A stretch of DNA of 64,000 nt from Exiguobacterium acetylicum DSM 20416 (GTDB lineage Bacteria > Bacillota > Bacilli > Exiguobacteriales > Exiguobacteriaceae). Both the position numbers and the translations under genes were made by a program. The stretch covers positions 300,501 through 364,500 of the forward strand of contig NZ_JNIR01000001.1 in assembly GCF_000702605.1 (NCBI RefSeq), read 5' to 3'. The notes beneath the pieces were generated by a model. It was not told the origin of the DNA and did no database searches. It saw only the letters and a program-made list of their open reading frames with translations. This document shows positions 60,451-64,000 of the stretch, piece by piece; within the stretch, counting starts at the first letter, position 1; every line of letters starts with the position of its first letter.

Positions 60451-61928
60451 AGATAGGATTCGTAGGAGCCGGTGTCGGTACACTGCATGCAGCGCTTTTG
60501 CTGACAGCAAGACATCCCGGAGTCGAGATTACGATTTTTGAAAAAGAAGCGCATGTCGGTGGTCGATTACAATCCGTCGATTTTGAATCAGGTGGCCGCA
60601 TCGATGAAGGTCCGACGATCGTCCTGATGCCAGGCAAGTTAAAAGAGCAGTTGGCAGAAGCCGGCGTGACGGGAGTAGAACTTGAACGGGTCGATCCATT
60701 GTATGACCTTCACTTCGACGACGGTACCGTCGTCACGAAAGTAGCCGATGTCGTGGATCAAGCGATCGCAATCGAACGTCAATTCGGTGAAGGGCGTGGA
60801 TTTTATGAATTCATGCATCAAAAAGAAAAGGATTATGAGACGAGTGTATCGAAATTTTTAGAACGTGGTTATCGTCGAAAGACAGAGTTGTTGCACCCAG
60901 ACATGATGCGTCCATTATTACAGATGCATGCTCTAGAAACTGCACATGACCATTTGAAGCGATACTTCAAGAGTAAATATTTGCGCATGGCATACAGTTT
61001 CCCGACATTTTATATCGGCGGAAATCCTTATACAACACCATCGATTTACGGTTTGATTCCGTACCGGGAACAAGCAGAAGGTGTCTGGTATGTAAAAGGT
61101 GGCTATTTCTCGCTTGCTGAACGCATGTATGACACATTAGTCGAACGTGGTGTCCGATTCGTCTTCGAGGCACCCGTTGAACGAATCGTTGTCGACCAAG
61201 GACAGGCGAAAGAAATCATCTTACAAGATGGAACACATGAAGCCTTCGATCAAATCGTACTAAATGGAGAGTTTCCATTGATGGAACGTCTTGTGGAAGG
61301 TAAACAACCTAAAACCTATACGCCTTCAGGCGGTACGCTACTGCTGTATTTCAAAATGAAAGGGAAAGTCGATTTACCAGTGCATCGCTTTTTGATGCCA
61401 AACGACTTGGAACCGCTCATGACGAATATCTTTAAAAAGGGACGATTACCTGAACATCCGGCAGTCTATCTGTTCCATCCAAGTCAGATTGACCGTAGTT
61501 TGACAGGAACGGACGATAGCGTCGTCTATTCATTAATTCCTTCTCCACGTGGCTATGGTGTAGAAGATTATGAAAAAGTAGAGTTCGTTGAGACCGTACT
61601 TGAAAAAATCGAGCATCATCATCCGGGATTCCGGGAAAAGATACAAGAAATGAAGATTCGTACACCGAATGATGCACAGGCCTTTGGATTGTATCAGGGA
61701 GGGAGTTTTGGGATTGCGCCGACGATTCGCCAATCCGCTGCCTTAAAGACACAGGCAAAACCGTATCCGGATATCGATCGATTATATGCCGTCGGTGCAT
61801 CGGTGCATCCGTGTGGAGGAGTACCAGTCGTCATGATGGGCGCAACGATACTCGTAAACCGAATGGAACAAGAGATGGGGTGGAAACATGAATTCAGTGA
61901 CGATCCAGAACGCGTATATCAAATGTGA
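60447..61928 (+). CDS. Divergent CrtN-like flavoprotein
   Basis: A 493-residue amine-oxidase-type FAD protein. DEGPTIVLMPGKL and FLERGYRRKTELLHPD match CrtN. The nucleotide loop is VGAGVGTLHAA (a Thr where the third Gly or Ala is expected) and the C-terminal signature reads VHPCGGVPVVMM instead of HPGAGVP. It may be a CrtNc-type or otherwise specialised desaturase or oxidase. It sits between crtN and crtM with overlaps on both sides, so co-expression is certain if the operon is transcribed. Confidence 0.7.
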   Translation: MKIGFVGAGVGTLHAALLLTARHPGVEITIFEKEAHVGGRLQSVDFESGGRIDEGPTIVLMPGKLKEQLAEAGVTGVELERVDPLYDLHFDDGTVVTKVADVVDQAIAIERQFGEGRGFYEFMHQKEKDYETSVSKFLERGYRRKTELLHPDMMRPLLQMHALETAHDHLKRYFKSKYLRMAYSFPTFYIGGNPYTTPSIYGLIPYREQAEGVWYVKGGYFSLAERMYDTLVERGVRFVFEAPVERIVVDQGQAKEIILQDGTHEAFDQIVLNGEFPLMERLVEGKQPKTYTPSGGTLLLYFKMKGKVDLPVHRFLMPNDLEPLMTNIFKKGRLPEHPAVYLFHPSQIDRSLTGTDDSVVYSLIPSPRGYGVEDYEKVEFVETVLEKIEHHHPGFREKIQEMKIRTPNDAQAFGLYQGGSFGIAPTIRQSAALKTQAKPYPDIDRLYAVGASVHPCGGVPVVMMGATILVNRMEQEMGWKHEFSDDPERVYQM

Positions 61929-62721
61929 GGAAGTCATTCAGTCCGGATCTAAAACGTTCTATAAAGCCTTCTCACTCTTACCAAAAGCAGATCGACAAGC
62001 TGTTTATGCCATCTATACATTTTGCCGATTCCTCGATGATACCGTCGATGAATCAGAGACACCAAAAGAGAGCTTAATGGCTTTCTTGAATGAATTCAAA
62101 CGATTCCGTGATGGCGAAGTACTAGATAAACCGTTATGGATTGCTTTAGCAGATGTATTTGAACGTTATGAAATGGATGAGACACCATTTCTTGAGCTCG
62201 CAGAAGGGATGCGTTGGGATATCGAGAAAAATCGTTATCAAACGCTTGAGGAGACAGAGCAATACAGCTACTACGTAGCGAGTACTGTCGGTTTGATGCT
62301 GTTACCCATCCTTGCACCGCAACAGCCTGATCTCCGTAAATCAGCTATCGATCTTGGAATCGCGATGCAACTGACGAACATTTTGCGCGATGTCGGTGAA
62401 GATGCAAAACGCGGCCGCATCTACTTGCCCCATTCATGGATGGAGACATACGGTGTCACAGCGGAGTCGTTACTCGCTGGTCGTCCTTCAGGAGACTTCA
62501 TCGGTCTCTGGGAAGAGGTTGCCCTTCGAGCAGAGCATCTATATGACGCGGCGATTCCATCGTTTGAACGATATCCACGTGAGAGTCGGCGTGCTCTAAA
62601 AGCTGCTGCCTTCCTATACCGCGGTATTCTTGATGCAGCGCGGGATAATCACTATGACGTCTTTACGAAACGCGCGTACGTCAGCCGTTGGCAAAAAATG
62701 AAGTTACTTGCTACGATTTAA
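61888..62721 (+). CDS. crtM: Diapophytoene (phytoene) synthase
   Basis: A 277-residue squalene/phytoene synthase. The two Asp-rich prenyl-diphosphate sites are FLDDTVDES and NILRDVGEDAKRGR, with YTFCRF ahead of the first. It condenses two farnesyl (C30) or geranylgeranyl (C40) diphosphates; C30 is inferred from the CrtN and CrtP relatives. It overlaps the previous gene by 41 bases and ends at a 22-bp hairpin terminator. Confidence 0.87.
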   Translation: MNSVTIQNAYIKCEEVIQSGSKTFYKAFSLLPKADRQAVYAIYTFCRFLDDTVDESETPKESLMAFLNEFKRFRDGEVLDKPLWIALADVFERYEMDETPFLELAEGMRWDIEKNRYQTLEETEQYSYYVASTVGLMLLPILAPQQPDLRKSAIDLGIAMQLTNILRDVGEDAKRGRIYLPHSWMETYGVTAESLLAGRPSGDFIGLWEEVALRAEHLYDAAIPSFERYPRESRRALKAAAFLYRGILDAARDNHYDVFTKRAYVSRWQKMKLLATI

Positions 62722-62726
62722 TACAT

Positions 62727-62776
62727 GACCATAGAAAAAAGACCTTGGCGGGGACCAAGGTCTTTTTTCTATGGTC
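62727..62776. terminator. 22-bp bidirectional terminator with CGGGGA/TCCCCG loop
   Basis: A perfect 22-bp stem (62727-62748 with 62755-62776). The inner part GACCTTGG/CCAAGGTC followed by six T is an intrinsic terminator in both directions. It ends crtM on the plus strand and the candidate RNA on the minus strand. Confidence 0.88.
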
Positions 62777-63080
62777 TGAGACCGGGGAGTCTCAGATTAC
62801 TTCTACACCAGAGCGAACATCTGGACTACGAGATAGGTCTGTTTCGACCACGGGGATGGTCTTTTCTTTATCGAGCTATCTGTGGACCATTCGGATGAGA
62901 CGATCTAAGGGGGAACGTCGTAAGTCATGCGAATGGACACACGATGAGTCACGTGATGAAATGGGTGGGTCCCATTTGATTTCGCTGGTTAGAAAAAGTA
63001 AGTTCTTCAACGCTCTTGACTCGGGGAAGTCACCTTGCGCTTGATTGAGGATGTGGGGTCAATCACTACCTCTTGAACTC
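62735..63080 (-). ncRNA. Candidate structured RNA with repeated UCCCCG loops
   Basis: The 420-base gap between crtM and the CrtP-like gene contains no plausible gene but many hairpins. On the minus strand, in order: TGATTGA/TCAATCA with loop CCCCACATCC (63065-63042); TGACT/AGTCA with UCCCCG (63032-63017); AAATGGG/CCCATTT with ACCCA (62977-62959); CCATTCG/CGAATGG (62936-62887) holding GACG/CGTC with loop UUCCCCCUUAGAU; GACCA/TGGTC with UCCCCG (62861-62846); CCAGA/TCTGG (62824-62808); TCTGAGAC/GTCTCAGA with UCCCCG (62796-62775); and the terminator, also UCCCCG. The 5' end is inferred from a promoter-like sequence at 63087-63115. C-rich apical loops are a known feature of Gram-positive regulatory RNAs that bind Shine-Dalgarno regions. 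The orientation is inferred. Confidence 0.55.
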
Positions 63081-63086
63081 GAAGTA

Positions 63087-63115
63087 ATCGTATCAAATCT
63101 TAGTTGTCCGTACAA
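63087..63115 (-). promoter_or_regulatory. Possible promoter of the candidate RNA
   Basis: On the minus strand TTGTAC and TACGAT are 17 bases apart, and the -10 is preceded by TG as in extended -10 promoters. Both hexamers are imperfect. The RNA could alternatively be part of the 3' UTR of the gene ending at 63143. Confidence 0.35.
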
Positions 63116-63142
63116 GTGATTGATATGCAATTCACATAACGT

Positions 63143-64000
63143 TCACAGGGTAGTGGCGACAGCAGAGACGATTCGTTCACTTGCTAGTTTTCCTGAAAGC
63201 GTCACCATTGGACTACCGCCACCAGGATGCGTTGATCCACCGGCAAAAAACAAATTGTGAACATTCTTTGAACGGTTGCTCGGACGGAGGAAAGACGACC
63301 GGATGCCATTGGATGACAAGCCATATAACGAGCCGTGATAAGCAAAGAAGGTTTGTTCGATATCCTGTGGTGTGATCCGTTGTTCGAAGACGACATCAGA
63401 TGAAATATCAATTCCAAATGACTGCAATCGTTGATTGATCAGTTGATCATACGTATCAAAATCAATCGCATGTCCAATATCCGTTGCGGGTGCATTGACG
63501 AGCACGAATAAGTTGTCACCCGCTTGTCCCATTTCTGGTGCTGTGACGGAAGAATTCGAGATATAGATCGTCGGCTCCTCAGCGTAACGTTTTTCATCAA
63601 AGAGTGCCTTGAACTCAGCTTCGTAATCCGAAGAGAAGAAGACGTTATGATGAGCCAGTCCTTCGATCCGACGTGAGAGACCGATACATCGGACGTAGGC
63701 AGAAATTGATGGTTCGACTTGAGCAGGTGTCGGATTTTTAAAATCAGGTCGTGCCGTTTCTGAGATCAGGCGTGGATATTGTGTCAATAAATCGCCGTTC
63801 ATGACGACGAAGTCGACCGGTAGATATTCCAAATGATTCAATTCGATTTCCGTTGCTTGTCCATCTACGACTTCGATCTGTGTCACCTCATCGCCAAGAC
63901 GGAAGACGACACCTAGTTCTTTTGCACGTCGAGCGAATCCTTCTGCGATTGCCGTATTGCCGCCATTCGTGAAGTAGACGCCGTCATTTAGTTCTAAATG
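63143..64000 (-). CDS. crtP: CrtP/CrtNb-like carotenoid oxygenase or desaturase (3' part)
   Basis: The frame stays open from the window edge to the stop at 63143; the Met at 63886 is internal (ARRAKELGVVFRLGDEVTQI runs through it). The C-terminal FAD signature FFAGGSTHPGGGSPMVTLSG is nearest S. aureus CrtP (GGGMPMVTLSG) rather than CrtN. CrtP-type enzymes oxidise the end groups of diapocarotenoids. It faces the crtN-crtM operon on the opposite strand. Only about 285 residues are in the window. Confidence 0.75.
   Translation of the reverse strand, partial: HLELNDGVYFTNGGNTAIAEGFARRAKELGVVFRLGDEVTQIEVVDGQATEIELNHLEYLPVDFVVMNGDLLTQYPRLISETARPDFKNPTPAQVEPSISAYVRCIGLSRRIEGLAHHNVFFSSDYEAEFKALFDEKRYAEEPTIYISNSSVTAPEMGQAGDNLFVLVNAPATDIGHAIDFDTYDQLINQRLQSFGIDISSDVVFEQRITPQDIEQTFFAYHGSLYGLSSNGIRSSFLRPSNRSKNVHNLFFAGGSTHPGGGSPMVTLSGKLASERIVSAVATTL

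Follow-up and report, generated by a model that had tools for sequence, protein, structure and literature searches.

A candidate family-wide small RNA with repeated C-rich loops behind the carotenoid desaturase gene of Exiguobacterium

RNAs of the CsrB/CsrC kind carry many copies of one GGA loop motif on differing stems. In Firmicutes, the available parts of two reports describe small RNAs (sRNAs) with C-rich regions capable of pairing with Shine-Dalgarno sequences rich in G (PMC4409812, PMC2837412), and, by the same partial texts and one on Xanthomonas, C-rich loops or regions of Staphylococcus aureus RsaE and RNAIII and of Xanthomonas sX13 have a known or proposed action on start regions rich in G (PMC4409812, PMC2837412, PMC3771888). 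Among the titles listed in the open-licence literature we found no paper on such an RNA in Exiguobacterium; a 2024 ISME J study of the genus predicted sRNAs and, in its available part, reported them as numbers (PMC10837837), and the available part of the E. antarcticum B7 RNA-seq paper took reads as possible coding regions only where they mapped to no ncRNA, rRNA or tRNA. Here we describe a candidate RNA with repeated C-rich loops in a window, meaning the whole stretch of DNA that was analysed, of 64,000 nucleotides from E. acetylicum DSM 20416. Exiguobacterium is known for cold and salt tolerance, and the RNA, if true, would add a new regulatory RNA, common to the whole family, to this genus and its sister genus.

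Position, promoter and strand of the candidate RNA

The candidate lies in the intergenic stretch 62722-63142 between two convergent genes (Table 1). Its upstream neighbour, with a stop codon at 63143, is a 247-aa fragment whose best NCBIfam matches are CrtD and crtI_fam, both below cut-offs. The RNA is found at the same place, downstream of this CrtI-family desaturase gene, in 38/38 genomes searched of the family, comprising 19 of Exiguobacterium, the genus of the window, and 19 of a sister genus. BLAST found the stretch in all 19 Exiguobacterium genomes; with the window stretch as query it gave no match in 18 sister-genus genomes, and the RNA was nonetheless located there by its position behind the desaturase gene (19/19), with most of the stem sequence replaced. 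The sole other BLAST match was 31 bases in a distant genome (G041). A pattern for the 5' part recovered it in ten named records, including E. sibiricum, E. undae, E. antarcticum, E. indicum and E. flavidum. Among 360 Bacilli genomes from outside the family, the pattern GTTCCCCCTTAGN{5,12}CATCC matched in one, and this match (L171) was discarded, similar hairpins being absent there by eye. For the 5' part we also made a covariance model, with 178 positions and based on 21 of the 38 sequences; run under strict filters by which weak homologues could be lost, it matched 12 of 161 genomes, all family members, and none of the 149 others. Thus, the sequence searches gave no convincing copy outside the family. 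The original prediction had proposed an Rfam search, and in Rfam 15 no family matched the whole window or the loci of four relatives at the gathering score.

The intrinsic terminator and the extended -10 promoter that had been claimed for this stretch are present and conserved in 38/38 genomes, though a simple consensus scan listed neither. The stretch carries promoter and terminator sequences of its own, as expected of a C-rich-loop sRNA, and the promoter layout is common to both genera: the stop codon, 24 nt, CACTTGT or TACTTGT, 16 nt and TG-A/T-[-10], the last element being TGATAATAT or TGATAACAT in all 19 sister-genus genomes. In the sister genus a palindrome, TCGACACTTGTCGA, overlaps the -35 (for example in L142, downstream of position 2235); it is absent in Exiguobacterium. 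From these signals we infer a stand-alone sRNA of about 346 nt, transcribed leftward on the minus strand from the extended -10 just behind the desaturase stop codon and ending at the terminator behind crtB. This agrees with the structured minus-strand RNA of about 350 nt foreseen in the original prediction, which is supported by the promoter, the terminator and covariation.

The same position could also be explained by a structured 3' UTR of the desaturase mRNA, or by an antisense element at the crtB end, acting in cis on the stability or termination of the carotenoid transcript. Such an element would fit the place behind the desaturase stop codon, which is fixed in 38/38 genomes, and the last hairpin, which in Exiguobacterium might end crtB transcripts on the plus strand as well and so serve both convergent genes. 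We consider it improbable, however, as the conserved extended -10 promoter stands between the gene and the structured part, and conserved C-loops would be unnecessary for stability or termination in cis. The start region of the desaturase gene, which by eye reads GGAGG in 27/30 loci and GGGGG in 3/30, likewise has no conserved match to the loops.

The strand assignment bears on another reading of the original prediction, in which a plus-strand RNA of the CsrB kind would sequester CsrA with GGGGA loops. CsrA is encoded in the genome (PF02599, E 7.2e-25), most loops read GGGGA on the plus strand, and this strand, too, beats its shuffles in folding (z -4.90). Against this, the minus strand carries the promoter and terminator and accommodates most G-U exceptions, which is why we read the RNA on that strand; in the 11 sister-genus loci that were read, the terminator stem differs and the U-tract behind it is present only on the RNA's strand. 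Where pairs of the minus-strand consensus vary, G-U outnumbered A-C by 30 to 4 in Exiguobacterium and by 113 to 4 in the sister genus, counts that are biased by folding, and a strand-neutral count made without an alignment gave 14 G-U, 2 A-C and 19 other mismatches; all of these sequences are related, hence the events are not independent. A strand-neutral count by columns gave 54 G-U to 10 A-C in the sister genus, but 26 to 33, with 63 other mismatches, in Exiguobacterium, where it does not discriminate; we think that alignment errors and an alternative hairpin interfere there. Taken as sequence evidence, this is good but not complete support for synthesis from the minus strand, and it leaves the CsrB-like reading very unlikely.

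A 118-codon open frame crosses the RNA on the plus strand (window 62688-63044). It looks like chance, since within the RNA it is open for 99 codons in three of the seven printed Exiguobacterium rows and closed in the other four. In the rows inspected (7 of 19 per alignment), no open frame of at least 20 codons was common to both genera; such frames recurred only in close groups (on the plus strand, 99 codons in 3/7 Exiguobacterium rows and 48-49 codons in 4/7 sister-genus rows), and a coding role for the stretch was rejected on this ground.

Table 1 Features of the candidate RNA locus. Positions are those of the window; loop letters stand in brackets within hairpin sequences
Feature	Position	Strand	Support or remark
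crtB-like gene, squalene/phytoene synthase family, convergent neighbour	61888..62721	+	PF00494, E 4.8e-77
Terminator hairpin G, loop UCCCCG (62749-62754)	62727..62776	-	
Predicted RNA, ~346 nt; 5' end ~7 nt past the -10 hexamer, 3' end inside the terminator U-tract	62735..63080	-	Ends predicted from promoter and terminator sequences, in 38/38 family genomes
Hairpin F, UCUGAGAC[UCCCCG]GUCUCAGA, loop 62783-62788	62775..62796	-	
Branch enclosing hairpin E; closing helix ACAGAUAGCUC (62883-62873) / GACCUAUCU (62839-62831)	62831..62883	-	Covariation
Hairpin E, GACCA[UCCCCG]UGGUC, loop 62851-62856	62846..62861	-	
Hairpin D, GACG[UUCCCCCUUAGAU]CGUC	62899..62919	-	Sister genus GAUG[UUCCCCCUUAGUC]CAUC
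Hairpin C, AAAUGGG[ACCCA]CCCAUUU	62959..62977	-	3 pairs changed on both sides
5' domain; closing stem GAGUUC (63080-63075) / GAACUU (63005-63000)	63000..63080	-	Paired in all rows of both alignments
Hairpin B, UGACU[UCCCCG]AGUCA, loop 63022-63027	63017..63032	-	Sister genus GGCU[UCCCCG]AGCC
Hairpin A, GAGGUAGUG[AUUGACCC]CACAUCCUC, Exiguobacterium only	63047..63072	-	19/19 Exiguobacterium, no variation
-10 hexamer TACGAT, TG at 63095-63094 (extended -10)	63087..63092	-	19/19 Exiguobacterium
Weak -35 TTGTAC (sister genus TTGTCG), 17-nt spacer	63110..63115	-	
TTATGTGAAT element (TTTTGTGAAC in sister genus), about -59 to -50 from predicted start	63130..63139	-	TTnTGTGAA in 38/38 rows
CrtI-family desaturase gene, upstream neighbour on the RNA's strand, runs off the window	63143..64000	-	NCBIfam

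Covarying stems and preserved C-runs

The claim of four minus-strand hairpins with the hexaloop UCCCCG on unrelated stems was confirmed. The TCCCCG words lie exactly at the loop positions of hairpins B, E, F and G (Table 1); the stems below them, unrelated in sequence, have 5, 5, 8 and 22 Watson-Crick pairs, respectively. We compared them with a background sample consisting of the window and 20 stretches of 20 kb from the same genome (464 kb, both strands). The 136 TCCCCG words of this sample gave four hairpins with at least five Watson-Crick pairs, every one in this RNA, while the overall rate of 1470 per ~928,000 positions predicts about 0.2 for the entire sample; a further TCCCCG hairpin, in L111, has four pairs, two of them G-U. 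In folding, the stretch beats 100/100 shuffles on either strand, with z -7.15 on the minus strand, and z was -6.83 for the predicted RNA alone and -9.10 for a sister-genus relative (L142).

Three further hairpins with C-rich loops had been claimed, and the loops ACCCA and UUCCCCCUUAGAU are indeed present on the minus strand. The third, the 5' hairpin UGAUUGA[CCCCACAUCC]UCAAUCA, is shortened to four pairs in two relatives (all Watson-Crick in L019, two of them G-U in L020) and was therefore set aside for an alternative, GAGGUAGUG/CACAUCCUC, which is unbroken in all 19 Exiguobacterium genomes, but without any variation; its counterpart in the sister genus is GUAAC..GUUAC. Because hairpin A, and hairpin D inside one genus, never vary there, and the stem closing the 5' domain is invariant inside each genus, these elements contribute no covariation evidence.

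Such evidence comes from the other stems. For the Exiguobacterium alignment (19 sequences, 16 distinct), RNAalifold gave a consensus of 71 pairs in which 98.9% of cells are paired, compared with 95.6 in shuffles. Thirteen pairs were changed on both sides, against 7.0 in shuffles (1/500 as high), and the covariation score was 0.138 against 0.071 (0/500 shuffles as high), with slid controls at 0.015-0.050; further pair types were not raised, 274 of the 500 shuffles being as high. The helix closing the branch around hairpin E (helix 7) accounts for five pairs changed on both sides, with 96.9% of its cells paired in Exiguobacterium. The sister-genus consensus has 103 pairs, nine of them changed on both sides; the shuffle control covered the Exiguobacterium alignment only.

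Between and within the genera the stems are exchanged around their loops. Hairpin C appears elsewhere as CAAG[ACCCA]CUUG and UCGUUUAAG[ACCCA]CUUAAACGA, and becomes GCGAGU[UUCCCC]ACUCGU in the sister genus. The stem of hairpin D passes from GACG/CGUC to GAUG/CAUC around UUCCCCCUUAG, and its loop core, GUUCCCCCUUAG, is identical in 38/38 family genomes. Hairpin E has the stems UCCA/UGGA and UUCA/UGAA in other Exiguobacterium genomes and reads UCAU[UCCCC]AUGA in the sister genus; its loop is UCCCCG in 18/19 Exiguobacterium genomes (UCCCCC in L020) and UCCCC in 18/19 of the sister genus (UCCCU in L151). Hairpin F has AGUUUAGAC/GUCUAAACU in other Exiguobacterium genomes and CGGAC/GUCCG in L020, and GAC[UCCCCG]GUC is replaced by an unrelated 12-pair stem around UCCCC in the sister genus. 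The terminator CCUUGG[UCCCCG]CCAAGG becomes ACUUUUGG[UCCCCCG]CCAAAAGU. In all, Exiguobacterium presents seven C-run loops and the sister genus six, of 4 to 13 nt between hairpins, and these unpaired, conserved C-runs are a feature of sRNAs whose C-rich loops pair with Shine-Dalgarno regions.

Selection on the loop, as the original prediction proposed, is thus borne out where it could be computed, the stems covarying or being replaced while the C-runs stay. The idea of fixed UCCCCG loops holds in part: the C-run is preserved nearly everywhere, but the exact letters occur in 38/38 genomes only in hairpins B and F. These comparisons support selection acting on the loops while the stems vary, and we are highly confident that a structured, family-wide RNA is real. 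Chance hairpins or a functionless repeat element would be a barely credible explanation in view of covariation and loop conservation over 38 genomes, and BLAST found no second copy in the own genome and no match among plasmid and phage records at its limit.

Possible pairing partners and the upstream element

The proposed function is that of a multi-loop C-rich sRNA acting on Shine-Dalgarno regions, which we regard as probable, with moderate confidence. When folded, the RNA would comprise a domain at the 5' end, a branched middle part and two hairpins at the 3' end, and its six (sister genus) to seven (Exiguobacterium) C-run loops would serve as anti-Shine-Dalgarno fingers. They would pair either with several mRNAs at their G-rich ribosome-binding regions or with sRNAs rich in G, and thereby block translation or alter decay. 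Loop D (GUUCCCCCUUAG) would be the main contact, and judging from its sequence it is the most likely main pairing site, while the other loops may give extra or further contacts.

We searched for partners in the start regions of 374 genes of the sample, with starts assigned by our own rule using an anti-Shine-Dalgarno sequence. GGGG was present in 72/374 start regions and GGGGA in 49/374, and at this frequency the GGGGA noted in Shine-Dalgarno regions is unremarkable; CGGGGA, which complements the recurrent hexaloop exactly, was found in 0/374. The complement of loop D matched the start regions of 33 of the 374 genes over at least 7 nt (30 for the reversed control), of 14 over at least 8 nt (15) and of 6 over at least 9 nt (6). 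For the other loops, matches of at least 7 nt in the same set and in the reversed control numbered 2 and 6 (A), 7 and 8 (B), 0 and 0 (C), 4 and 5 (F), and 0 and 1 (G), with loop E at 3 against 1. Several loops amount to CCCC tetraloops with a closing U-G, and as seeds these are short. The loops are complementary to G-rich Shine-Dalgarno sequences in general, no better than controls, and no specific target was conserved across both genera (374 start regions, 38 genomes, 11 sister-genus loci per candidate gene). Of the multi-target translational regulator in the original prediction, the general complementarity stands, while a specific family-wide target was not found.

The exact 12-nt complement of the invariant loop D core, CTAAGGGGGAAC, occurs in every family genome by way of the RNA's own opposite strand, which is its only match in 16/19 sister-genus genomes; apart from the RNA it had 21 matches in the 38 genomes, against 36 for the reversed control. 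In Exiguobacterium, exact loop D complements of 12-14 nt sit at the Shine-Dalgarno of two genes (L073, L074 and L076-L079, near position 1501; L085, L086). At the start of a leucine-dehydrogenase-like gene there are 14 Watson-Crick pairs in six Exiguobacterium genomes and 13 plus one G-U in a seventh, and at an E2-like gene start 12 pairs in nine, 11 in seven and 10 with G-U in three. These genes, which we take to be bcd and bkdB, have HMM matches below the equivalog cut-offs and lie about 5.6 kb apart on the same strand (G000). The coincidence of two matches so placed is suggestive. By inspection, a portion of the E2 match resembles the stop codon of the gene before it. As family-wide loop D targets both genes were rejected, the match being present in 0/11 sister-genus loci read for each.

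A decoy RNA, whose C-loops would be copies of a binding site for a UCCC-recognising protein or a G-rich partner RNA titrated in the manner of CsrB or a sponge, would account for one loop recurring many times on unrelated, freely replaced stems within one RNA, for the U and G often kept around CCCC, and for the failure to find a specific conserved mRNA target. Firmicute G-rich sponges that bind C-rich sRNAs exist, as the available part of one report describes for RosA with RoxS and FsrA (PMC8216469). However, loop size varies from 4 to 13 nt between hairpins and also between genera, and loop D keeps 12 bases, beyond the need of a UCCC site, so that we hold a decoy to be unlikely. A more speculative combination, to which we give only tentative credence, is a multivalent hub RNA of this one bacterial family, in which six or seven equivalent C-loop docking sites would titrate a UCCC-binding protein or G-rich RNAs as a C-rich counterpart of CsrB, and loop D would be a separate specific contact.

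Upstream of the predicted start, the TTnTGTGAA element (Table 1) is a possible response-regulator site. In the available part of the roxS report, it was an 8-nt conserved element near -65 that pointed to ResD (PMC4409812); that ResD/SrrA, or redox-type response-regulator control, might act on the promoter described here is only a guess. In Exiguobacterium a direct repeat, TGTGAA-N5-TGTGAA (window 63131-63147, minus strand), precedes the promoter, and near-copies occur elsewhere in the genome. One sequence resembling it, TGTGAACATTATTTGAA, starts 96 nt ahead of the ATG of an open reading frame (L046) whose product HMMs place among pyridine-nucleotide oxidoreductases, below cut-offs, and which by inspection resembles a type-2 NADH dehydrogenase; a hint of shared control from this copy is a lead, not evidence. 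Near-copies also precede an apparent 5S rRNA, recognised by eye, in four spacers (L036, L049-L051). PhoP-, WalR- and CcpA-like readings of the repeat were dropped, as the sister genus keeps one half-site only.

If the sRNA acts on Shine-Dalgarno regions as proposed, stems that change almost freely around loops that do not would offer a clean test, set by nature, of how loops rich in C locate G-rich ribosome-binding sites. The RNA also raises the question of why one molecule needs so many C-loops, and it is a ready covariance family for Rfam.

Comparison with described RNAs

RoxS is shorter than the Exiguobacterium RNA, and RNAIII also encodes a peptide. FsrA (RF02273) has C-rich regions, according to the available part of one report (PMC8216469), and its model weakly matches the same strand, at 18.6 bits in full length and 19.7 bits over positions 30-83; membership was rejected at these 18.6-19.7 bits against a gathering score of 80 bits. 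Another weak FsrA match in the own genome (L121) reads like coding sequence by eye.

With CsrB/CsrC the Exiguobacterium RNA shares one loop motif repeated on differing stems, but its promoter-bearing strand has C-loops instead of GGA. RNAIII of S. aureus, in the available part of its report, is similar in being long and in using C-rich hairpin loops at the ribosome-binding sites of several mRNAs (PMC2837412), and the Exiguobacterium RNA differs in having no Rfam match and no frame common to both genera (7/19 rows per alignment). The sX13 RNA of Xanthomonas, as partially available, resembles it in CCCC motifs in apical loops of stable stems and in G-rich targets (PMC3771888), but has three loops and belongs to a different phylum; the likeness drawn here is one of description. 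RoxS/RsaE of B. subtilis and S. aureus is alike in having several C-rich regions able to pair with G-rich Shine-Dalgarno sequences, and in its own promoter with a conserved upstream element, near -65 for roxS in the available text (PMC4409812) and near -55 for TTnTGTGAA here; the Exiguobacterium RNA is distinguished by six or seven C-loops and by the lack of an Rfam match. Judged by sequence, the best explanation is that the Exiguobacterium RNA represents an RNA family absent from Rfam 15 and separate from RsaE/RoxS, RNAIII and sX13, with more loops than these.
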